Assembly: GCA_000310025.1 (NCBI GenBank)
Contig: FN649751.1
Location: forward strand, 837,145-901,144
Reading direction: 5' to 3'
From: Ectocarpus siliculosus
Lineage: Eukaryota; Sar; Phaeophyceae; Ectocarpales; Ectocarpaceae
Length of the DNA: 64,000 bases
Part shown: positions 6,101 to 61,000 of the stretch, piece after piece
How positions within the stretch are numbered: the first letter of the stretch is position 1
Layout of the letters: every line of letters begins with the position of its first letter
Notes under the pieces: model-generated
The model's database searches: none
Told to the model about the DNA's origin: nothing
Seen by the model: only the letters and a program-made list of their open reading frames with translations
Made by a program: the position numbers and the translations under genes

Positions 6101-8782
6101 GAACAGGGTAGTAGTGGTATCGGGGTTTCGTGTGTGATTGTGCGCGTTGTGTGTAACAGGAGGTGTTGGGTGTGATGTAGGCGAGGACGCGTTTTGAGAG
6201 CGAGCACAGGAAGACCCCTGGAACCGAAACACTAGGTTGATGCATACCACAATGCTCCCTCATGTTTTTTTTTTTTTCCGCCGCGGCTCCGTGGTTGGGG
6301 GATGTCATGGAGATGTCCCCTCAGTTCCTTGCTTCAGGGATGCATTCCTCTCGAATCAGCAGCACAGTTCATGTCGTCTACACTGTGTTGTTGTTTTCCA
6401 TCCGCCGCGCTGCTGCTTCGAGCGCGCGCGTGTGTATAGTGTCAGTTATTCTGGCGGCAGTCTACAAGTGTCTCAGTGAAAACGTAGGAAGTTTACAGAG
6501 GAACCTTTTTTTGCTTTTGGTCTTACTTAAACTGTCATTGCCTTGCATCCACCGCGCTGATGCTATTTTTTCTCGCGTACTCTTCATTACTTGCCGTTTT
6601 GTGCATCGACAGGACCTCGAGGGGGACGAGCAGGCGAGGGCCTTGCTTGGCATGGCGGACTGGCTGCACGACCAGGGGTTCCACCGCCAAGCCGCAGACA
6701 CGTACCAGAAGGTGACGAACTGCGGAGCCCCCGCGCTGCCTCCCCTCTCCCCGCCGATGTTGTGGATGGGTAGAATGATGCCCAAGTTTTCTCGATTTTT
6801 TTTTTTTTCTCGCTTGTTTCGACGTCGTGACCCTTCGACCGGTGAGCCGGCGCAACGCTGCTGTTTTGCCATAGCACACCCCTGGAGTGTTTTTCAAAGC
6901 TCGATTTCTCTATACAAACATGTGTACAGCGGAAGGAGCGGCGGTGCCGAAAGCTTCTAGAGCTTTCCGAAAACGCGTCGTTTGGCTTGAGGTGGGCGTA
7001 GGGCTTTTCCTCTTTGTCGATTCTCGGTGGTCCATTGGTGGCCCTTTCGGCGTTAACGGTGATTGGAAGAACCAACATATCGCGAGGGTTGGGGATATCG
7101 GGTAGGGACATGAGGGCTGGTGGCGTTCTAGAGCCAGCGGGGAAGTTCCCGGATCCGTACGCCTTTTGCTGGGCCCCCACCTCCGGCACCGCGTCGCTGC
7201 GTGGCCCCCCTTGTCCGGCTGGGCATGTTCGAGCGGGGCACGTGCGCGCAGCAGAAATACACACGGGTCACCACCCAAACATTCTGATCGTGTTCTGTTT
7301 TCTCTGCTTTTCCTTGCACCGGAAATTTTAGTTATTGCCTGCAACTTGATGGACGACCCCGATAAGTTGATGCTCCTGTGTTTCGCTTTAACACGTCTTC
7401 TCTTGTCGTTCTCTCCGTTATGATTACCTCTGTGTTGATTTAGCTGCTGCGGCTGGGAGCAGAGCTTGACGGAGATCTAAGGATACAAGCTCAGGCCTCC
7501 TTGGTGATCGCATAGTGAGTCGACTTGCCGGTTTCAGCTGTCGGTTAGCCTCCTCGTCTCCGCGCTACTATAAGTTTGTGCGGCTGCTGCAGGCACGCGG
7601 AAACCAGATGCTTTGTATCTGGCCACTGCTGTTGTTGCTTTCAACCAAGGCTGTCTCACTGCTTTTGATTTCGTCTGTAGTTTTTGTGTTCTTGTCTTGG
7701 CTTCAAATCAGCGCTCGCAATAGGGTGCAGGTCTTATTTTGGTGGTCTGGCTTGTGCTTTTGCACTGGTTGCCGCACAGCCTTGCTCTGGTCACATTCCC
7801 CAAGTCTGTGGCTTGTGCCTTGCAGTGCGAGTGAACTTTTGTACAGCCTGTTGCACCGCGTTGCGCTGGTCACAACACAAACCCCGTACCTGGTAGTCAG
7901 GTTCTCCAACTAAGTTCTGCATACGGCTGTGCGTTTGTCGCTGCTTCTTGCTCCTGTTGCCTGTATCCGACCGAACGTAGATAACAGTATATTATAGTTT
8001 TTTTAGTCAATCGTACCGTTTCTGGCTTGCACTTATAACGACTACACGGCCTCCATCTCGACGAAAAATTTGCAGTTCGTACTTCGACAGCGGCAAGTCG
8101 GAGGAGGAGGCCAGCAAGCTGCCCTACAACGCTGACTTTGGTTCGATAGAGGGCTTAGACCCGCTTGCATTGGAGATGACCGAGCTGCCCCGCTCCAGCA
8201 AGGTGAGGCATCGCTTTTTTTTTTTTTTAGCCCACCCCTATTTTTTTTGGGTAGGTGGGTTTCCTCGTTGGGAGACGGAGGGGGGCGGACGCGTGTGCTT
8301 GATCGGCGTTGAAAGGGGGCTCGACATGTAGTAAAGGTTTGGTAAGTACTGCTCTGCCGGGCACGCATTATGTGGCGAGTCGCTGGGACGGCGAGGGGTG
8401 TCGAGGGGGGAAGAGACTTTCTCGTTTCTGTGAAGCTTTCTTGTCCTCGAGAGTGTTTTTTTTTTTCCCTTGTCGCCACTGTTTGCACACGGAGGCTCTG
8501 TACCCAAGGGCGATATCTCTGTATTGAGTAACCCCTACACCTGTGGCAAACCCTTTTGATGCCCTCCTTGCTTTTGGTTGATATCCGGCGCCCCCACTTG
8601 CATTGCAGGCCCGGAAGCTTGTGCTTGTGGACAAGGCGTCGCAGAAGGCCGAGCGGCGACAGAACAAGCGGGACCCGGAGGCTATCCTCAAAAAGAGGGC
8701 CAAGAAGCGTGCCAAGTACATCGCCAAGCTCGTGGAGGACGGTCAGTTGTGGTTGTGGTGGTGATGGTGGAGGTGGTGGTGA

Positions 8783-8813
<31 letters not shown>

Positions 8814-10313
8814 GCTGGTGTTGCTGGTGTTGTTCGTAATGTTGTTTTTGCTATTGATGGTGGTGGTGGTTTTGGTGATGATGGTGGTGTTGCTGCTGCT
8901 GTTGTTGTTGTTGTTGTTGTTGTTGCTGGTGTTGCTGGTGTTGTTCGTAATGTGTTTGCTATTGATGGTGGTGGTGGTTTTGGTGATGATGGTGGTGTTG
9001 CTGTTGTTGCTGGTGGTGGTGTTGTTGGTATCTGCATAGTGACTATGACGCCCCCCCGTCGGTGACCGCCAGTTCCGGGGATCTGTTACAATGCCATCGC
9101 TCCCTCCCTTGTCCGCTTCTCCACCAACAGGAACGATTCCCCGCGTGCTCTCTGGTTTTCATCAGCGTACACCCTCCCCAAGAGAAACGATCACAAACTG
9201 CTGCTTTCGGTCCAAAGAACATGATTGGAGGCATTGTTGGTATTGGATTGGTTGCATGACGTTTTCGTGGCCACAGACCGCGTCTTTGCTAGATTTTGAG
9301 ACTATCAACTGACACGAGTTTAATGTGAAGACAACAACAATGACAACAATGACGTTGTTGGTGTTGCTTTTTTTCTTGCAAAGGCAAAAAAAATCCATCT
9401 CTCCCACAGACAAGAGCCCGTCAAAGATTATCAATGAACTCACGGTGTTGTATGATAGAGGTCTATTTACACTCTGTTAGGGACTCTTTAGGTCTAACCG
9501 ATGTTGCACTTTGCAAGGTTAGGTTCCTCACGCGAGCAAGGCTAGGTTCCTTACCCTAACCCTGACCCCCCTCACCTTCGCCCGAGGCCAAAGCACGGCC
9601 TAGCGGCCGCGAACTGGCCGAGAACGCGGCTGCGCCGCGTTCTCGGAATGCGGAACGGCGAGAGGGCGCTGGAAAGGGTCAAGACTAGGAACCAACGCCG
9701 GACCAATCAGAGGGCGTGAAACCGATAGGAAGAGTCACTAACAGGGTGCAAAAATTACTGGTATGATGACCAACCTGAATTTTATTTTATTTTTTTTGCG
9801 CGACAGGCAAGATCGATCCCACCAAGCCGGTTCCCAAGCCCGATCCCGAGAGATGGATTCCGCGATCACACCGGGCCTACGGCAAGCGAGGACGAAAGCG
9901 CAATAAGTTTGTCGGAGCACAGGTATCTACGAGATCTACTACGGCTATGCTTCCTTCCCCCCAATGACTGTGCCGTTTTATTGTCGTTGGGACCCGAGCG
10001 ACTCCTCCAATATTATTAAGATCGTTGTTGGTTCGCACGACTATGCTTTCCCCCTGTGGCTGTGCTGCTCTTTTCGTTTTTATTGTCGCCGAAACCCAAC
10101 TGCTTCCTGCAGCAAGATGGGGATCGTTTTTGGTCGGCCGTCCCCTTACCATGCTTTCTCGAATATGATTTTCGCGTCAGGGGTCCGGGGATGGCGCCGC
10201 GAAGGACACCGCGAAGCTCGACGCTCTCGCCAGAGCTCAGGCGAAGCAAGCGGCGAGTGAAAAGGTACGCAAGGGCGATCTACGGTATATCGGAACTGGA
10301 TGTCGGCCATGCA

Positions 10314-13305: not shown

Positions 13306-16300
13306 TCAGTCGTGCGACCACGATGTTCTTCGCCAGTTACAGCGTTCGGCCGGCACCGTGAAAATTTCCTCCAGCTCGTGGTCGTCGGTGTGCCCCTGGA
13401 AGCCGGCTTCTCTCTTCCAATGGCCGTTGGCGAAGAGGTAGCGATGGCGCGGAGCCGGCTCCTTCTTAGCGTTGCACTGATGGCAGAGGTCGTAGTCCGG
13501 GCACGCCAGGCAGTGGTACCGGGGACCCGTGAAGTCTTGCGTGCCGCTGGAATAGAAGAGGATCCGCGACATATTGTGGGCACGGATAGGGTTGGGATGG
13601 ATCACGTGCAGAAGCGGCCTCTTGGTTGGTTCCCTATTGGCCCGTTCGAGACTGGTCGGGTAGGATTGAATCGACAACTCCAGGTGCGGCGAGATTAATA
13701 CCAACGCAGATTCGACGTCCTGAGTCAACTACTTCTGCGCCCACACAATGTGGATTGGCCTTGAATTGGGCAACATACATGGGTGGTGGAAGAGGGACGG
13801 ACTAAGGTTGTCGTCTAACGAAAAGCGCAAGCGCTAAATTACGCGGGGCGGATAAGGAGAGCTTCCACATCTATATTCGCACGAGGAAAAAAAAGTAGCG
13901 ACGCTCACCAAGAGTCGCAAATGAAGGCGAGCTGTCTTCCTTGAGCGATGTACTCCAACGTTTCCCTTGGGTTCACGTGCCGCTGTTGGTCGTATGCGAT
14001 ACGAGTCCGGAACCCCTGGTACCCTAGAGATTCGCAAATCTCTACCACTTCCGCCATCTACGTTTGGTTCGGTTTCGGCGGCAATAGAGGGGGGAAGAGT
14101 GTGCGAACGGTTTATCTCTCTTGCATGCATCAACGTCCCCCATTGAAGGAGAACCTTCTTCATGGACCACACTCCGATGCAAAAGAACGTGCGAATGGAT
14201 GCAGTCCGCCCGCCGAACGTGGTTGGGTTTGAGTCACACGGCCAAAACATCTCCATCACGTGCAAAAGCAGTAGCCTCCTCCTCCCGGCGCTTGCACGGC
14301 GGCGGCACCCGGTACCCGTGAGCGGCGCACACAAAAACGCCGCAGAATCCGACGACGCGACGCCGGCAGCAGCACCACTCCCACGTACAAAAACCACAAA
14401 CTGCCGCGGCCATTAAGAACAGCCAGGAGCACGGAGTTGTGGAGCATACCCACAAACATTACCAGCCAAACAAATCAGAGATGATATAACTACAATACTC
14501 ACCTTTATGAGATGCACGCGCCCTAGCGGCCCCTCCCCCCTCAGCAGCATGTTCATCTCCTCCACCAGCCCCTCGACGGCCGCGTTGTACGTCCGCCTCA
14601 CGGCGGGACGGTCCCCGGCGCGGAAGAAGCAGATCGACGTGCCGGAGGATAGCCCGGCCCGCTCCAGGGTCACCCCGACGTCGCCGCCGCCTTGCTCTCG
14701 TTGCCCGGCCGCCGCCGCCGCCGCCGCTGCCGCTGCCGCTGCCGCTGCCGCCACGGCGGCGACACCTCCTCCCGGACTCGGGTTCAGTCCTCCTGGCGAG
14801 GTTGACGGGGGAGGGCACGCGAAGAAGCGCTCGTTCTGGGAGGCACCACCCCTGACGGCGGCGGTGCTTCCTCCCGACGGCTCCGCCGTCTCCGCGTTGT
14901 ATATCTCCGGGTCGGTAGCCACTACCGCGCTCTGCCAGACCCAGGGCAGATCCTCGACGTACGCCTCGAGGTCTTGTGGTGCCAGGGCCGTGTCGTGCTC
15001 GGCCGCCGCCAGCTCGAAGAGGCTTCGCAAGGGGCTGGATGCCCGGAGGGCAGCGTGCGTGAGATACTTGGGGGTGGGCGGCGAGGCCGCCACCCCGCCG
15101 CCGCAGCCGTTGGAGTCACCGCCCCTCCATGTCCCCGCCGCTGATTGTGATTCTTCGTTGCCCAGCCCTAGAGTCTTGACGAAAACTAGGATGCGCTCTT
15201 CTGGCGGAATTCTTTGTCCGTCCCCGCTTGCGCCATCGGCTGCTGCGCCATCCTCGTCACCGGCATCATCACCCTCGGAAGCCGGTGAGCCGGCGGTAGG
15301 CGGCGCGCTTTCGTCGCTAGCCGACTCCCAGGCCAACGTCGACTGCTGATGAAACGGGTAAACGTCCGCCGTTCGGGAAAGCCTCACGCCGGCGTAGTTG
15401 TCCTCGGGGTCCGGTTGCGTCGAGGGCGACGACGACACCCAAGATCCATCGGTATCTCCTGCGCCGCTGCCGCCATCACCGCTCCATCTACTGCCGTCGG
15501 ACGATGGCTCGAGGGGCGCCCCCGTCTTCTCCTTTTGCCGCTGCTGCTGCCGTCGTCGCAGCCAGACGCGCGAGAGACGGGTCGCGTCCCTCCCCCCCTC
15601 CGTCTCCCAGAACCCCCCGTCGCCCCGCTGCTCTACCCAGAGACGCACCCTGCACGTCTCGTCCACGGCGTCACCGCTAAGAAGCCGGAACAGGCTTGGC
15701 GAGTTCTGGCCGTCGTCTAAGAATCGCGCCGGCAAGCCTTTCCCGCTGAGCACCGACGAGAATTAGGCCAGGAGGGGGAATCAGGCAGGGAGGGGGCACC
15801 GCGGAGAATCAGGGAGGGAGGGGTATCCGTGAGCGAGTTGGGTGAGGTCCTCGTTCGATACTCGTCTCGCCCTTCCTCTGCGTGCCGGGACGACGTCAAA
15901 GCACCGCTTACAATTCGCCCGTACCATACAAACAAGCTTCAAGAGTTTGGTTCTGTGCTGGGCCGTGCCTGCTGCATGACCCGCCGGTTTTGGGTGAGGG
16001 CGGGGGATTCACCGGCACGATTCATACGTCGCACTTCCCGAGAGAGAGGGAGGGGCAGAGCGACCGTGCCGGGCGACCGTGCGGGGGGGGGGGGGCTTAC
16101 ACCGCTAACCGGTGACGCTGCTTCGTGAGGAAAGAGCCCCGCGCGTGCCTTGAAAACCATCGGCGCTACTGCCGATCATCGACCCCGTGGCATCGGCCAA
16201 AGAAAGCTGCAAGCGTGTGTGCGAAACTTCCCGCGCGATACCTAACACTTTTAAAGTTTCACAGTAGAAAACCATATATATTCCTTTGCGCAAGGCGTTA

Positions 16301-19300
16301 ACCGAAAGGTCCCCAATGCCCACCCCAACTGAAAATGACGCATGCATAACCGCATATCGCACCTGAGCAGCTGTCGCGGCGCCAGCGGGCCGTCCGTGAA
16401 CGGCTGCGAGATCACCCAGAGCCGGATCCCCTCCCGCTCCACTCCGAGCGTCCGCGCGATTAACCCCTCCACCTCCTCGAGGGTGGTGCACCGGAGAACC
16501 TCGAACGTGATGCACGGCAAGGGACCGCCGCCCTTTGCGGGCGTGCTGGTGTTGCGTTTCTTCCCTCCAGGAGAAGAACGCCCGTCAGAACCGGTGGCCG
16601 CGGCGGGGGGGGTGTCCCGAGGATGGTTTCGGGAAGTTTCTGATAGGGAGACAGGGGTTGGGGCAGAGGCAGAATGCCACAACGGAGAGTTTGTGAGTTC
16701 ACTGATAATGATGTATGCAGCGGAACGATGAGCTGTCTCAAGAGAGGGGTCAGCCAAACCCCTTGGCACTACCACGCCGCCTTTAAACAGGGACCACCCA
16801 TCTACGGTAACGCAACACGTTCGAAGAGCCGAACCACCGGCGGTAAAGACCAACCCCACAAAAAAAAACAAGGCATGCCCAAACATATTATGCACGTAAG
16901 AGCGTGCGACGCACCTTGCTCTTCCTCCTGCTCGGTCCCATCGTTGCCGTAGAAGTGAAACCGTCGGTCCCTACCGCGAACCGGAACAACCCCGAACCCG
17001 CGGTGGGAAGCGAGGTCGGCCGTGGTGTAGACGTGCAGGAAGAGGAAAAGAAGCCGGGCGCGAAGCCGCACCGTGAGCCTGCCGTCCTTCACGAACCCTT
17101 GCTCCGGGTCCTGAGACATGTCGCGAGAGAATCGCGGGCTGAGGGTTGAGACCGAGTCTACGGGGTGGGGGGGGGTAGGCGTTGTACGATGCTGAGCTCC
17201 TACAATGCTGCTTGTTGGTGAAGAAGCGCACCCAGGCATGCAACGAAGATTGCGAGCGCTTGCATACGACCCCGGCCTTGCCGCGCCGACAATCTCAAAG
17301 CAGGACCCAGTGGTACTGCATGGGACACCAGCTACAGTGACAGAGCCCGTCCGACAACGGTACCAAGTCGCCACCTTACCGCCCACGCACCTGCACCTTG
17401 CCCATCGGGATCAGGCAGTGCACCCCCCAGCTGCGCCTGCCCAGCCAGAACCTGTCCCCCTCCATCGACGACACCCACACCACGCCCTTGTCCCCCGCGG
17501 TTTTCACCGCCGCCAGGGAGAAAGCGGTGCAGCACTCGCGCGCGATGGCCGCGGGGTCCCCCGCGTGCGAAACGATGGCCGCCCTGCCCTCGCGGGTCCG
17601 CGCGCGCCGCCTCCTGCGACGCAACCCGTGCGGATCGCTCTTGGCCTCCGCTCGCGCCCCCCCTGCCTCCTCGGCTCCCCACGGTTGGCCGACCAACAGG
17701 TGCTGCGGAGGGGGCGGAAATCCCTCGAAGGACGCCCCGCCGGCCACTCCCCCTACCCCCCAGGGAGGAGTGCCCGGGGCGTCGTCGTGGAAGGCCACAG
17801 TGAGGTAGACGGACAGGCCCTTCTCGACGGGAGGCGCGCCGGCCGCCTCCGCCTGGCTGGCAGCGCGGGGGTTGCCGGTCGGGTCGGCGAGGAGCATGAA
17901 GAGGTAGCCGCACAGGGAGAACGGGGGGAAGTACCTCCGCTCCGACTGTAAAAGCAAGAGCCGCCGCGCGCCGCCGGTGTGCGAGAAACATGGAAGGCGA
18001 GGAAGGGGGGGAGGGGGGGGGGGTAGCAGGGGTTTGTGGTGGCAGCACCTATGTGCGTACCTCGTGTGTGTTTCGAGTGTACGCCAGAGTACATACAAGA
18101 CAAACACTTGCAACAACGGGCGGGGGCAGGGGGTTGTGCAAGGGACGACGTAGGCTTTCGCCGGGCCAAAGTCGGAGGGAGAGAGTCAACGACCGAAACG
18201 TGTGGTCACCACGGGAGACGAAAGGTCAGAGGTCCGCGGACTTCACGGCGCAAGTACAACACAACGACGAGCCGCTCTACAGCGGCGGCCGGCACCACCG
18301 CGTGAATCCACCACCACAACACGGCGCAGCAGAGCAAAACACGCAGCACCACAGCACAGCGACACACACCACCGCCCATCCCTCACTCGCCTGTTCTGGG
18401 TCCCCCCCCTCCATTCCGTCAGCCCCGTCCGCGGCGCCCCCCGTTACCGCCTCCATGTTCCAGTCCAAGACCGTGGAGCGGTTACCTCGGTTGCCGTCAA
18501 GGAAGGTTTCTCGGTAGTCCCCCTCGTAGGCGCTGCAGCACGTGTACGGCGACCGGCTAAAGTAGTAGTCCCGCAGGTGGGGGAAAGCAGACATGCACGC
18601 CCGCTGGGAGGGGGGAGGGAGGCAGACCAGGTCGGACAATATAGCGGACACGTGGGTTTATTGTCTTGCATCACGGCACACAAAAAAAATCCCAGCGGGG
18701 TGGGGAGATATCGTGACTTCTCTCCATGAAGGGGTTTCTTGCTGCAGTGGAGGGGGTGGAATGTGGGAGACTCTTGTGGAAAGAACATCATTCACTCCCG
18801 GGGTCGTCGCGCATCATCCCGTCTACGATAACGCACGAGTCACGCTTATCCCCCAAACGCACGTACGGGAAAAAATAAGTCCCTGCGGCCTTGAGTCGTG
18901 GAACCCCCCGCACCAACATCAAGCCCTCGGACTCTATTGACGAGCAAAAATTCACATGTAGTTTCCGCCCCACCCTGATCGTATGCTTACGGCCGGGGTG
19001 TGATGACGCCAAGGACGCCATGTCTCCCGCTGATTTCGCTTCCGAGGAGTGGGATCGCTCCCGTGTAACACTTCCCCCCCAATTTGTAGAAAATGTACAT
19101 ACAACCAAAGAGATGCTGGCCTTTCGAGAAAACACCACAGTCACTCCAAGGGGAACTTTCTCAGCAGGGAGTGGGAAGAAGAGAAACCCCCCTCTTGGGG
19201 GGAAAAAAAAAAATGAATCTCGGATTACTTGGTGCGCCCCGCCCCCGGCTCACCTGCCACAAGTGTGCCCGATCGGTGGCACGCCGCCAGCAGTACGAGA

Positions 19301-21325
19301 CGGCCTCGCAAGACAGCAGCCCGTTCCCGTCCAGAAACTGAGACCGCACCGTCGAGGTTGAAACGAAACACCGGCAAAGAAAGAAAGGTGGAGAGATGAG
19401 CCAAACAGAAGAAAAGGTCCAACACATACCCAGCAGGATACCACTACATGGGGACCTAACGGACTCGGGATATTGCGGAACGGCCAAGGGAGCAAGCTCC
19501 AGGTTCGCTGCGGCCGCTTCGCGATCGAGCTCGAGTTCGAGCGCCGAAGGGTGCCGCTTGGACCAAGAGCACCACGTCGTCCTGGTTTGGCCCCGTGAGC
19601 TGCCTAACAACCCAGGCTGCACGTGCCTCGTGACTCAAAAGGGATACAAATATGTATTTCTTGTTTTCCAACATATACTCCACACACACGAGTCGGGGAT
19701 AAATCACACCAGCAACTAATTCGCTTGGCGTTTTTTAGAGGCCGCCACGTCACCCCTCAGCAGCTGTTCCGTCGCGCGTCGACTTTGCATGCAGTCTCAA
19801 CGGCCTACCTACATGTTTGGCCGGTGTTGCCCTCGGTTTGGTGTTTCGGCCGTTCTGCCTGATTTGCCTAGCAAGGGTTCATCAATTGTTTCCTTCGTGT
19901 GTACTCACGGAACAAGCGCGTTCTGCGAAGCGAAGTTACTTCGACATGCGGGGGGATATCTCACCGACATTTGTTTTTCCTACAGCAGTACGACAACAGC
20001 TGCTAGGAGATGCTTGCCCGCGCCAAAAATCAACCTCATGGCCGGAACGACCCGTGTACGGAAATGACTGCCATGCGGCTGTATAGATCCAACATCGCCC
20101 CGCCGGTACATACTTCGAACGACGGTGTATTTGCCAACGGATACATACTTGTAGAGAGTGCGAGGTTAAGATTCCCTGTGAGAAGATACGCATATCTACT
20201 ATTATATTATACTGTAACTATCCTGTGGTCTCCATCTGCAAATGCCGCCGGCGATGGCTGTGCATCGATTTGGGGCACGTTTTTTTTTTGCAGCCGACCC
20301 TATTTTTACTTGGGCAGGTCGATGGCCAGAGTCGTAACGTGTCTTGGGGTGGCCTGGCTTAACCGGGCCCGCGCGAGACTAGCATATCGAGGAGTGCCGG
20401 GACTGCCGGGGAGCGGGAACAAAGTTCCAAAATTGCAACTAAATCAATCACTTCGGCGGGGGCTTTGGGCAGTCGACGACGACGGCAGCTCTACTTTTTT
20501 AGTCACTCGGAACACGCACGAAGACGTTCAGCTACTCTGATCCGCTCTCTCTCTCTCTGTGTCTCTTTCAACTGCTGTCCTTCAGGGGAGAACGCGCATG
20601 AGCACACGGCCCTGCTGCGTTCAAGTAACAAGTTGTTGCCAAGAGTTGCAAACATCCCGCCGTCGCTCTTGCGGTGTACAAGATGTACAGCAGTACTGCT
20701 GTAGAATGCTCTCCGTTTGGTCGTGGTTCTATTTCTACCTCTCTCTCTGCCCGCCACATGCACACACGTGCTGCGTCTATCGTGTCCCGCTATGTAGCAA
20801 AAGCGATCCTACGCCAGGATGTGTGATCTGCCATGGTACGAAGTAGGTATATATTTTCCGCCTCTGCACACAAGTACAAACGAAGGAGGTGCACACAATC
20901 CGTAACTTGATTGTAGTTGTATCTGCAAGGCCAAACAAAATGGCCCACCAACACACCGCCGTCAAAATCTCCCGCCTTAGAAAGGAATCAGCGTCAGCCG
21001 ACAGACAGATGGGAGACAAAGCCTCCGCCAACAACGCACGCACGCCCGACCATACCAGTGTTAGAGAACACGGGAGTGACATTGGACGCTGCCAAGGCGC
21101 TGCCCGCAGGGTCCACATTTTTGGTACGGTACATCGGCGGTGGAATTCCGGCACATTGTTTTCAAGAGAGAACGGCAGTAGAGTCGTTGTCATCAGGCCC
21201 ACCTCAAACACCGTGTCGAGCACCTCCACAGGAACCGTCGGGGCCGGTGCTTCGGCGAAGGCCTCGCCTCCTCCGGCTCCAGGCGGCTCGCTCCTCCCGC
21301 TCGGAGCCCTCTTCCTTTGATCCAT
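13306..21325 (-). CDS. F-box / MATH / USP7-type UBL-like / ZZ zinc-finger protein
   Basis: Nine exons: 21325-21203, 19337-19254, 18603-18448, 17945-17391, 17110-16915, 16639-16363, 15745-14503, 14057-13909 and 13546-13306. All are GT-AG and in phase, giving 1007 residues. An F-box at about 30-68 (VPVEVLDTVFEFLDG to ATDRAHLW) spans intron 1 and should bind Skp1. A MATH domain at about 105-330 includes VLDWNMEA, RYFPPFSLCGYLFMLL and WGVHCLIPM, and closes with DPEQGFVKDGRLTV as in USP7/UBP12. Residues 330-730 resemble the USP7 post-catalytic region: LLFLFLHVYTTADL, then ITFEVLRCTTLEEVEGL to GIRLW, then ILVFVKTLG to LRSLFELAAAEH. A poly-Ala run lies near 810. A ZZ finger at about 921-970 has C925, C928, C940, C943, C949, C952, H962 and H970. 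No USP Cys or His box was found. The likely role is a substrate receptor of an SCF ligase (inference). The USP7-like match is by eye and is the least certain part. Confidence 0.85.
14690..14760 (-). repeat. GCC/GCT triplet run coding for poly-alanine
   Basis: On the minus strand this encodes an uninterrupted Ala tract, about 17 residues after a VAAVAA lead, inside exon 7 of the F-box/MATH gene. It sits in a disordered linker between the UBL-like segment and the C-terminal ZZ part. Confidence 0.8.
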
Positions 21326-55446: not shown

Positions 55447-58020
55447 CGTCGTCGCCGTACACGCGAATGTTCCGATTGTTTTTTGTGTCTGCCGAACGAG
55501 AGAGTGTTTTTACATGTCCCGGGAATCAGGCAGCGTTTTGTTATTAGGACGCTACAACACAGGACGGGCGAAGCACAGCAGAGGAAGACATTTCCATTTC
55601 CCTTCCACACCTACAAGTACAATCTCAATATCCAATATCAAAAGAGCAAATGTAAATGATTGGTAGTATTTAAGGCCGCAGCAAGATACAACGGCGGTGC
55701 GATCTGCCTTGCCACAGCCACATGTTCAACGCGATTCTTTTAATTCTTAGCCATGTATGCAGTATAATATTATAGTACCTTGCTGAGTGAGTATGCTTGT
55801 CTTTCATTACAGCAGTATTTGTAGGGGTCCCCGAAAAATGCGGCGTCAGCTGACAATGACCGCTTTAGGGACAGCCGCGTTGACATCAAATTGTCGAACT
55901 TGATTATTCAGTCAATGCCAGGCAATTGCACCCGCTTACAAAACACCGATTTTTAATGGAGCATAAGAGTTGCGAGAAAAATTCGAGTATTTTTTGGTCG
56001 GGAACTTGCGTCGAAAACACCCTCACTATTGTACGGGCGCAGAAACTGTTCTTCACGGGACTGGTGGAAGGCCGAGGCTTGATCATTTTTTATTTTTGGA
56101 GCAACCGGCAATGGCGAGAAGCAGGCACACCTCCTTCATACCACACCGCGAAGCCGCCACAGCGTGCAACACAAGCTTGGAAATGGAAACCGAGATGGTG
56201 GCACAAAACCTGGCGTTTGTTGTGCCTTCCAATCGAAAGCCAGGAAGACCTGAATTATGCTCAACCCAACACATCTTATTTGACGCAGACTCTACGAATA
56301 CTACACAGCTGCGGCCATCGCTGGAAATTCCAACTCGGCGTGCAAATATTCTGACTTGGCCCTTCAACTATGGTGTGGATAGTGCGCGCGTGTGTGGCGG
56401 GAGAGAGTCTACGTGCGTGGTAGGGGAAGGTGCTTGACGTGGATTGGCGGAAGTCTCGCCGCGCAACTTTTGTTCGACGCTTTCGTCGCTCGGGAAAAAA
56501 AAGTTTGCAAACTCTTGCTCCAGATGCGCGAGTATTTTCACGAGTAAAAATTTCCAATATCTTGGCGCAACTTTTTTGCTTCCACAGAGAGTACATGAGG
56601 CAAGTTCCGAGCAAAGTTTAACTGCATTTTCTCGCAACTTCAGACCGCCGTATTGGGGGACCCCCACTGCTGTGTTAGCATCGACGCGCTAACCAATGAA
56701 AATACATCAGCCTCAATGCGACTGACAACAGCATAGCCGCCACCTTCGCGGTTGGTTTGTGCTTTTCAAGCGGGGTAGACAGGCTGCCCATGTGGTTTGG
56801 CCACCTCCTAACAGCAATGTGGCAATTGGCAAACGGCGGACCTTTACAGTTGTTGAGCCGTGCATTGCAGAGTTTCGTTTCCGTTTTTGCAGATCTTCCG
56901 TTACGACACGGGTATTTGAGTTCGGATTCGGGCAGAGGACTCTTGTACTCTCCGCAGCACGACGAGCCACAGCCTTACGATATCCCCAACGACAATCTGA
57001 ATTGGGCTTGTCCTACTGGAAGGACTAGCTTCGCTGTCGGCATCCGCGCCGCGGCAATCCCAAGCCGTGCGTCAGTTTCCGCTGATGCCATCTTCTCCAG
57101 ACATATTGTGGTGTAGTGTCATCAAGGCTTGATGCAAGATGAAAGAATAGCATGTGTTCGGGTGAAGCATTCGCCAGCTGCCATCAGGGACGTTTCCCAA
57201 GCTCGAAATACAGCTGACGTGTTTTTAACTCGAACAGCCCAGCGAACCTCAACGAACTAACAAGAATAAACTACAAATTTGTGTGCGTACATGATCTCGC
57301 AATAGCTTACGAGTACGGCACCTCACGGTCGGGCTGGAACGCGAACACATTCGTACGCGACGAGCGCCGCTCGATCGATCACGATCGATCTTCACACCCC
57401 AACAAGCAAGGGTGATATGGTGTAGGTCTCACACAAAAGCCTGCCCGTTGCAGCAGACTCGCCGCACGCTCTGCTCGTTTGGGAAAGACCAGCACAAGGC
57501 GCCCTTCTGTCTCATCTCTGGTGCTCCTCGGCTGTGTTCTGATTGGCCAAGAGGGGTTTCTTCTTTCTCACCTCACAACACTCAGATTTTAACGTCTCTT
57601 CAATATTCTGCGAAGCATAGGGGCCCCACCGGCGGGGACCTGTTTTAGTCTGGGTACCCTATGCTTGGACCCTCGCTTGCGAACCCCCCGCCCAAGCCAT
57701 GATCATACCAAATCGGTAGTACGTATGCATAGCACATTGAGAGAGCACCTAGCTCAAGGTATACGTGACACGTCGCCCCCAAACTGTAGCACGCGATGTG
57801 ATGCGTATGATAAGGAAAATTATACATAGCCTGCCGAATTCGTACGTACAGGAGTGCCGAAAACGCTGTAGCTTTGTCAAGCCCCACAAAGTGCGATGCC
57901 AGCTGTTATGCTTTCGGAACAGGCGTCAACGTACATGACCCAACAAGGCTATGACCCCCCCCCCCGCCCCCGCCCCTGTGCACGCTCGATGTATCATCGA
58001 TTTCCGCGCGGACTTGCAAG
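55447..58020. other. Region without a recognised gene
   Basis: It contains the possible TIR element above. Frames are short. The 5' exon(s) and promoter of the LRR kinase should lie in the right part, but no start exon could be chosen with confidence. Confidence 0.4.
55824..56665. mobile_element. Possible TIR element, degenerate
   Basis: The left end AGGGGTCCCCGAAAAATGCG and the inverted right end GGGGGTCCCCCAATACGGCG are similar. A second inverted similarity lies inside: GTTGCGAGAAAA with GGAACTTGCG at 55970-56010, matched by the right arm at 56598-56640. No clear target duplication or coding sequence is seen. The call rests on imperfect inverted repeats only. Confidence 0.35.
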
Positions 58021-61000
58021 ACATCCAACCAGAAAGAGAAAGTCGACCTTGGGGATGACGGGGACCGCTCACTGCCGCCATCCGGCATTGGCAGCAGCAG
58101 CGGCGGCGCCAGCAGCAGCACCTGCGACTGCGATTGCCACAACAAGGGCTCCAGCCGTAAGCGACGAAGCAACAACAGCCACGCTGAGCAGACGCCGAAA
58201 TCGAACGGAGGGAACAGCGGGGGCGGCGGCGGGAGTGGAAGGGCCAGCGGCAGCAGCAACAACAGCAGCAGCAGCAATACCAACGGCAAGCGGCCGAGGC
58301 GATGCTGCAGCTGCCCGGCGGCCATCGCCCGCACCGCCGCCGCGACGGCTCTAGGGCGGCGGTCCGCCGGCGGCGGTGGCGGGATCAAGAGCGCCGCTCT
58401 TGCCGGCACCCCCGGGAGAGGCAGACACGATCGCCGCCTCGAGCCGAACAGCAACAGCAGCAACAAGAGGCGCTTGAAGCGTGAAGGGTCGAGCTCCAGC
58501 GACAAGGGGGCGACGGCGTATTCCTCCTCAGCGTCGGGGGGGGCAGGGGGGGTTGCGGCCAGGCAGAGCTCGGCTGGAGCGGGCGGGGCCAAGGCGGCCG
58601 CCGCGAAGGCGGCGGCCGAAGGCGCTACCATAGAGTCGCCGGTGGCGCTGCGGTACATGTGCCTGCTTCCCGGGATTGTGCTGAGGTCGGGCTTGGTTTT
58701 CCAGAGGGTGACGGCGTTGTCGATGCCCGGGCAGGGGATCGGAGACGGCGACGTCCCGGCTTCGGTGGTGAGGCTGGCCGGGGTGCTGAGGAAGGTGGAC
58801 CTGAGCGGCAACCGGCTGACCGCCGTGCCGCCCGGGCTGTTGGGGCTGGGAGCCGGGCTGGAGGACCTCAACCTCGGCAACAACGACATCGCGGAGATGC
58901 CGCCAGAGATCGCCAAGCTCGGCGGGCTTCTCTTCTTTAACATGGCCGGGAACCGCCTGACCAGGCTCCCCGCTGAGATCGGGCGTCTGTCGTCGCTGAA
59001 GCGGCTGGGCCTCAAGGGCAACGCGCTCGTGCGCCTCCCCTCCTCCATCGGCGACCTCACGCACCTTGTGGAGCTCTACCTGACGGGCAACATCCTCGAG
59101 GCCCTGCCGGACGAGATCGTCAAGCTGCGCCGGCTCAAGAAACTCCAGCTGTCGTTTAACAACCTCCGCTCCTTGCCGCAGGGGATGGAGGCCATGCGCA
59201 GCCTCGAGCTCTGCCGGCTCGCCGTTAACCCGGGGCTGACGGTGGTGCCGGAGGGGCTGACTTACGCCGAGAAGTTGGCGTGGGTTTCATTGGCGGGGTC
59301 TGCCTGGTGTGCCCGGGCCTCGGAAAAACGCCGCAGGTGTGAATGCCTCATGATCCAGGTACATACCACAAGCTTGCCCATGTCGGTAGGCTTAGACACT
59401 TACCTGTTCCTCGTCAGTAGGTTCGGACTCTTTTAGAAGAAAACCTCTCTGTTAACATCGCAGGGCTTCACTTTCGTACGGCAAGTCAGCTGTCGTTTTG
59501 TTTTGTTTTTTCAACTATGCTGAACTCGGCTGTTTTTTTTTTTTCAAGCATGCTATATTGTAAGAGAGGCTTGGCCTGCCCCATTTTGATTCGATAGTAC
59601 TCCGTTGGGAGGATTGTGTTCAAGTCTTGTACATACAGAGAGGAACCTGATGGGGTACTGGACTCAAATCATGTCTTGGCTACTGAGATGGTCTTTTTGG
59701 ATGCGGGATGAAGAGAATGAATGAGAGGCGGGGCGTCTCGCGCTACCCCAGACACGATGGCCGTACCGTAATGCTTTTTGGGTGGTACGTCAAGCCCGTC
59801 GTTTTCGAGGAGGTACGCGCCGCAGGAGCGCTGACTACAGCCACCTGCTGAAAGGAGATCGAAGGCTTCCTTGAAGCCCTGTGTACCGAATGCCGTGGTT
59901 CAGCGGTGCAGCCGGCATAACACTGACACGTGGCGGTAATATTTACCGAGGCGGCTGGCTTGCCGTTGTCACTATACATGTCTCGGTTTATCTCTTTTTG
60001 GGTGGCGAATTCACTGAGTTTTCCCGACATGTCAGCGAGACGGGCGGTTTTCCCGTGCATTGTCTCTCTCTCTCTATCAAAAGTATCGACTTGGTTGCCC
60101 TGTATGACGGGCTGTGGGTTCCAGTGTTCTCTCCCCTGAGAAGTGCAGTACAGCAGTGTTCCTTTTGCTGACAGTCGTCGTGGAGGCGCTCATTCTTACT
60201 CGAAGCAGCGTCTTGACCGCCACCACCGAATCTACGTAGAATCTATCCATATATCCCGGTTGAGTGGTGCCTCTTGATCGGAATCTATGTATCCCGGTTA
60301 AGTGGTGAAACCCCGTTCGAGGCGTTATGACTCTTCTCTCCCCTGGTGGTTGTGTGTCTCCCGTGTGATTTCAAATGAAAGAGATTGTGTTTAACCCGAA
60401 TGGCGTACCGTTCTAGAGGCTGAGGTTTGGTGTCCCCCGAGCCCGCCACAGTTCGGCGGTGCTCGAACACACTCCTCATACCAGTGGTCTTGCTTGTAGA
60501 GCAGTACAGCAGTGTTGCGCTTGCCGTCGAATTATGGTCGCTTCTCTCTCCTCTGCATTCTGGAATTGAAACGTGGCGACGGCTTGGTGGATGACACGAT
60601 GCCGCCAGATCAGAACCGTCTCTGTGACGAACAGGGAGGGAACCCGCCTTACCGCACGTACGTATACAACGCTGGGAATGAGTTCTGGCCAGTCTTGAAA
60701 TGCGGCAACTCATCCACAATCGTGATCGACTTCCCTTCCCCTCCCTTGCGCGATCTGTGCCTGGTCCCGAAAACAACGAAAAAAGAACTTCCTTCCCCGA
60801 GATTCCGCGAGAAGAAGTGGTTCTTGGAGAGCGGCTTGGGAGCGGTGCGTCAGGGGAGGTGTTTGCTGGAGTGTACAGAGGGAGGGACGTTGCAGTAAAG
60901 GTGAGGAGCAGCGGGGAACCCTTCCTGTTTGGGGTGGGGTAACCGTTATCACGATGTGGGTGGGTGTGCCGGTCCTTTCTCGCGAACTTCGGGCTCTACG

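Follow-up and report, generated by a model that had tools for sequence, protein, structure and literature searches.

What is an F-box doing in front of the client-holding modules of the deubiquitinase USP7 in a brown alga? The question is raised by a gene in a 64,000-nucleotide stretch of Ectocarpus siliculosus DNA (assembly GCA_000310025.1, contig FN649751.1, positions 837,145 to 901,144 of the forward strand), hereafter the window, in whose own numbering its features are located. On the minus strand, from an ATG at 21325 to a stop at 13306, nine exons in a single frame encode a protein of 1026 residues with the domain order F-box, MATH, two USP7-type ubiquitin-like (UBL) modules, a conserved stretch without assigned fold, and a ZZ finger. 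From its sequence, we consider it probable that this F-box protein is an SCF (Skp1-Cullin-F-box) substrate receptor, the client part of which consists of a USP7-type MATH and UBL1-UBL2 plus the ZZ finger. This is the simplest reading because the F-box precedes modules that hold clients in USP7. On this reading the F-box would bind Skp1, MATH, UBL2 and ZZ would bind clients, and bound clients would be ubiquitinated; the cutting part of USP7, its peptidase, was not found, nor were its C-terminal UBLs, which activate the peptidase, while the client-holding parts appear to be retained with altered pockets.

Is this one gene, and is its model sound? Gene model, conservation, domain likeness, lack of a detectable peptidase, single locus and presence of Skp1 genes were all established computationally. 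The initial annotation had proposed a nine-exon model that keeps its frame, and in this it was right; its length of 1007 residues had to be revised, since the start of exon 9 was moved to 13546, after CTTCTATTCCAG, because five relatives read ...FICDS|CGTQDF there. When four relatives (P0001-P0004) were compared with the window by tblastn, exons 2-9 were recovered in order by all of them and exon 1 by P0001 only. The flanking residues are conserved at six of the eight splice junctions, and the remaining two, which follow residues 140 and 390, fall within linkers that vary.

The relatives were drawn from about 5.8 billion proteins, among which the candidates richest in shared words were scored (7980 for the single-sequence query, 7990 for the alignment query). 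This yielded five proteins with the single sequence and seven with the alignment. P0001, from Ectocarpus sp. CCAP 1310/34, is 92% identical to the window protein; P0002 is from Scytosiphon promiscuus, the identifier of P0004 points to Undaria, and P0003 and P0005 are EukProt proteins, while P0006 and P0007 are two short fragments that resemble unspliced copies. The search depends on shared 5-residue words, which distant relatives may escape, and the relatives found do not establish a restriction of the family to brown algae. The complete domain order is present within one gene model in four of the five annotated relatives (P0001-P0004). Conservation follows the domain blocks, as the identities with P0004 illustrate: 35/46 in the F-box, 69/102 in UBL1b and 41/50 in the ZZ finger, as opposed to 5/51 and 33/130 in two linkers. 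In the alga's own genome all nine matches of P0002 (21 candidates scored) fall at this locus, and the gene is thus single-copy at that search sensitivity.

The two ends of the protein are recognised directly. An F-box-like domain at residues 31-73 exceeds the Pfam cut-off in the window protein (E 6e-8; 1.2e-9 for the trimmed segment) and is detected in four of the five relatives; against USP7 the F-box segment scores 14.2 in hhalign and does not exceed its control, as shuffles reach 17.7. Skp1 has two matches above the cut-off in the same genome. The ZZ finger likewise exceeds the Pfam cut-off (E 2.4e-7, obtained with the first model, in which the ZZ part was still incomplete), and its CDSC, CPDYDLC and later HxxxH are invariant in the family. 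In PDB the family profile matches p62 (sequestosome-1) and KCMF1 best, in every case within the ZZ part.

How firmly can the middle of the protein be assigned to USP7? The full-length window protein has no MATH and no USP7 match in Pfam at E up to 10. MATH_2 is present in three of the five full-length relatives and, once variable inserts are removed, in 4/4 members, with a best E of 7.4e-8 (Scytosiphon, above cut-off); the window's own trimmed MATH reaches E 6e-4, below cut-off. A MATH profile built from four members was searched against PDB with an E limit of 10, and each of the 11 sequences listed is a USP7 (best E 0.027). We then compared the family alignment with 18 USP7/UBP12 sequences by hhalign, with pairwise E-values and with reversed USP7 and 19 column shuffles as controls. 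After trimming, MATH scored 63.8 (E 3.8e-8) and UBL1 57.9 (E 2e-7), and the joined UBL1+UBL2 core scored 82.8 (E 1.2e-9) over 212 columns, collinear with UBL1-UBL2 of USP7. The controls remained at or below 22.3 (reversed USP7) and 25.3 (shuffles). Untrimmed, MATH and UBL1 gave E 4.6e-6 and 2.3e-5; the tail segment, at 21.7, did not exceed its control, for which shuffles reach 24.1. In Pfam, the only family matched by the UBL part is USP7_ICP0_bdg; for P0004 and P0005 this match lies in the UBL2 part and spans profile positions 39-145. A mixed alignment of the family with USP7, in which MAFFT placed UBL1 against the peptidase, was not used. Taken together, a resemblance of residues ~141-860 to USP7 is supported at the sequence level.

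Where USP7 holds its peptidase, the algal gene goes straight on: the end of MATH and the start of UBL1 share exon 5. Neither UCH nor USP7_C2 was detected in the window protein by Pfam at E up to 10, and BTB is not among the five Pfam families listed for it at that threshold. USP7_C2 separates poorly, as the USP7 matches P0010-P0015 (one of them from Chrysoparadoxa) also have no precomputed USP7_C2. Five USP7 proteins searched against the window revealed no peptidase remnant, their single match (E 0.49) lying outside the peptidase part. A true USP7 is encoded elsewhere in the same genome, on contig C484:180001-201193 (L003-L005), where open frames contain a Cys box (NQGATCYMNSL) and a His-box stretch (HSGDVHGGHYFAYIRP); among the relatives found with these frames are P0008, from Ectocarpus sp. 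13 AM-2016, and numerous proteins that combine MATH, UCH and ICP0_bdg. A 4,297-base run of N lies upstream of the first recognised exon in L003, and about 5 kb of sequence follow the last recognised UBL exon before the end of the contig. When PF22486, PF12436 and PF14533 were searched against the alga's genome, only two PF12436 matches appeared, both below cut-off and both on C484 (E 0.10 and 0.95); these profiles gave no match in control genomes, so that this search does not establish absence.

The architecture put forward in the initial annotation thus stands. The order F-box, MATH, USP7-type UBLs, ZZ is borne out by Pfam, hhalign and P0001-P0004, and the direct passage from MATH into the UBL part by the shared exon and the lack of a detected peptidase; the UBL likeness behind MATH passed the profile comparison, with the joined core well above all controls, although single-sequence Pfam matches stay below cut-off. 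The USP7 likeness was upheld with it; a role as ubiquitin-ligase receptor is plausible, and the suggestion of shared clients, discussed below, did not fare well.

Several observations weigh against the assignment of the protein to an F-box receptor with USP7 modules. Taken alone, UBL2 is weak (hhalign score 31.5, E 0.0015, with controls reaching 22.3). USP7_ICP0_bdg was found in four of five trimmed members at E 2.8e-5 to 0.029, all below the Pfam cut-off, and gave no match with the window's own trimmed UBL sequence; the best match of P0002 and of P0003 aligns UBL1 to profile positions 185-234, which we take to be UBL3. A UBL profile searched against PDB places two LLGL2 sequences (E 0.42) before USP7 (E 1.8). 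AlphaFold2, run on a five-sequence family alignment, returned a mean predicted local distance difference test (pLDDT) of 29.4 and no 10-residue block above 55, even in the confidently assigned F-box and ZZ; the output is uninformative on the UBL fold either way. Finally, the P0005 model (EukProt g5450.t1) goes from exon 1 to exon 5, without exons 2-4. This may reflect an annotation gap or exon skipping, and skipping of exons 2-4 would preserve the frame because introns 1-4 are in phase 0.

Does the algal protein hold the same clients as USP7? Excerpted text on human USP7 describes binding of P/A/ExxS motifs by Asp164/Trp165 of the TRAF (MATH) domain and of KxxxK motifs by Glu759/Asp762/Asp764 of UBL2 (PMC4624675, PMC6203733, PMC4457826). 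In the PDB alignment (query 117-156 on 154-193 of a 1102-residue chain), Ser-Trp of the family falls on Asp164-Trp165, and in hhalign the family's LSSGT stands ungapped opposite LEDGD of plant UBP12. Position 164 is Ser in 7/7 family sequences with that part and Asp in 18/18 USP7 rows. Trp165 is retained in the family; the USP7 rows have Trp in 11/18 and Tyr in five, the other two being P0015 (Chrysoparadoxa), which has Thr, and P0008 (Ectocarpus), which has Phe. For UBL2, the human numbering placed on the hhalign alignment is presumptive: 764 is Ala or Thr in 6/6 family sequences and Asp in all 16 USP7 rows with letters, 759 is Gly in the family sequences examined, and 762 is Asp in just 6/16 USP7 rows. 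The family thus appears to keep the client-holding modules of USP7 but not its known pockets, and the alga's own USP7 seems to have one pocket altered too. The algal F-box protein probably does not simply share the clients of USP7.

Where did this combination come from? Module order and sequence likeness make descent from USP7 likely, which is short of shown. We tentatively propose that in the brown-algal lineage the peptidase of a USP7-type deubiquitinase gene disappeared and an F-box and a ZZ finger were added, by which a module for client rescue would have become a receptor for client destruction, with both pockets re-tuned and beside a true USP7; on balance, we would not yet rely on this full scenario. 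A competing origin, which we regard as rather doubtful, is that MATH and the UBLs were not acquired from a USP7 gene: they would have had different sources, or a common one in an ancient protein ancestral to USP7 too. In a tree of the shared part the family falls beside a USP7 group that comprises P0015, from Chrysoparadoxa, and five further sequences, and the support of just 37, a very long branch and columns partly derived from the peptidase leave room for such an origin, as does the retained Trp165, which is absent from Ectocarpus P0008, P0015 and P0010-P0014. It accords poorly, however, with a MATH that matches only USP7 in PDB, a UBL part that matches only USP7_ICP0_bdg in Pfam, and the fact that both adjoin in the order of USP7.

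The protein could also be a decoy or scaffold instead of a ligase receptor, with USP7-like modules that bind partners and an F-box in another role. Functions beyond SCF are known for some F-box proteins, and the ligase function proposed here is itself deduced from sequence. According to the excerpted text of PMC6704089, moreover, MATH of UBP12/13 is needed for GIGANTEA binding, and the protease and C-terminal parts are dispensable. The conserved F-box-like domain above cut-off and the presence of Skp1 in the genome speak for the SCF receptor, and we judge a decoy or scaffold unlikely. Still less probable is that the protein has the same clients as USP7 and the opposite effect on them, a ligase counteracting the deubiquitinase, as the initial annotation had considered: the retained modules are indeed the client-holding ones and a USP7 gene is present in the same genome, but the pocket positions differ across the family sequences examined (Ser at 164, Ala/Thr at 764, Gly at 759), and the idea is not favoured. 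That the model is an annotation chimera of two adjoining genes is very improbable, for although the last F-box residues detected are in exon 3 and the first of MATH in exon 4, so that the link depends on that splice, and although intron 1 is long (~1.9 kb) and the P0005 model omits exons 2-4, P0001-P0004 are each annotated as a single gene with the same order, and exon 5 holds both the end of MATH and the start of UBL1.

Along the minus strand, the SCF receptor candidate is laid out as follows. Exon 1 (21203..21325, residues 1-41) carries the start codon, the N-terminus and the beginning of the F-box, and P0001 has an identical start. The F-box core is in exon 2 (19254..19337, residues 42-69), which is matched in tblastn by four relatives, and the F-box ends at residue 73 in exon 3 (18391..18603, residues 70-140), followed by a conserved stretch, which, judged by eye, may be the first MATH strand, and a variable linker. 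The donor of intron 3 is GC in our model; an alternative GT donor 21 bases further, implied by P0001, is also in frame. Exon 4 (17391..17945, residues 141-325) holds the bulk of MATH, including a variable insert with a conserved Arg-rich stretch (17580..17636, about residues 244-262), 16 to 19 of the 19 residues of which are identical in comparisons with P0001-P0004. This stretch is a possible nuclear localisation signal, and the protein may be nuclear. In exon 5 (16915..17110, residues 326-390) the end of MATH passes straight into the first part of the USP7-type UBL1, which continues behind a linker in exon 6 (16363..16639, residues 391-483). Exon 7 (14503..15745, residues 483-897) contains the end of the UBL1 region (to ~15604), a long variable linker, UBL2 (~15213-14614, where inserts and a poly-Ala stretch occur) and the start of the conserved tail. 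Exon 8 (13909..14057, residues 898-946) comprises the conserved stretch without assigned fold and the first ZZ Cys near 13919, and exon 9 (13306..13546, residues 947-1026), its acceptor placed from relatives, the remaining ZZ finger (to ~13378), the C-terminus and the stop. Residues ~861-946 (14613-14503 and 14057-13909), ahead of the ZZ finger, are highly conserved and have no informative match in Pfam or PDB; a UBA-like identity, guessed by eye, found no support in either.

Elsewhere in the window, an open frame with leucine-rich repeats on the plus strand (57955-59433, LRR_8 2.2e-21) represents a separate gene, and a tandem repeat of period 108 with 2.6 copies occupies 8750-9027. Scanned for Rfam families and tRNAs, the window gave no match.

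If the proposed SCF receptor is real, the recognition half of a deubiquitinase would be reusable by a ubiquitin ligase. The algal protein would be a natural design in which client-binding UBLs of the USP7 type work without a peptidase. Since the genome also has a USP7 gene, how far the clients of the two proteins coincide or differ can be measured directly.

How does this architecture compare with known systems? An F-box combined with the order MATH-USP7 UBL-ZZ has no description among the matches listed in the open-access literature, in keeping with the initial annotation, which knew of no such family. In USP7/HAUSP and plant UBP12/UBP13, as in the algal protein, MATH comes before UBL1-UBL2; the algal protein differs by having no detected peptidase or USP7_C2, by the added F-box and ZZ, and by the changed pocket residues. 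For the ZZ part, the closest likeness in PDB is to the ZZ fingers of p62 (sequestosome-1) and KCMF1, which read N-degrons. In SPOP and other MATH-BTB proteins, MATH is thought to be the substrate module of a cullin ligase, according to the excerpted text of PMC1257465. MATH as a putative substrate module is thus common to SPOP-type Cul3 receptors and the algal protein, with BTB/Cul3 in the former and the F-box/Skp1 type in the latter. To our knowledge, the MATH-BTB family lacks UBLs and ZZ. The nearest idea that we found in the literature comes from Arabidopsis, where the excerpted text of PMC6704089 links the F-box protein ZTL to UBP12/13 via GIGANTEA in one complex. There, too, F-box and MATH act in combination, but on separate proteins and with a UBP12/13 that has its protease, whereas in the alga the F-box and MATH-UBL form one chain.

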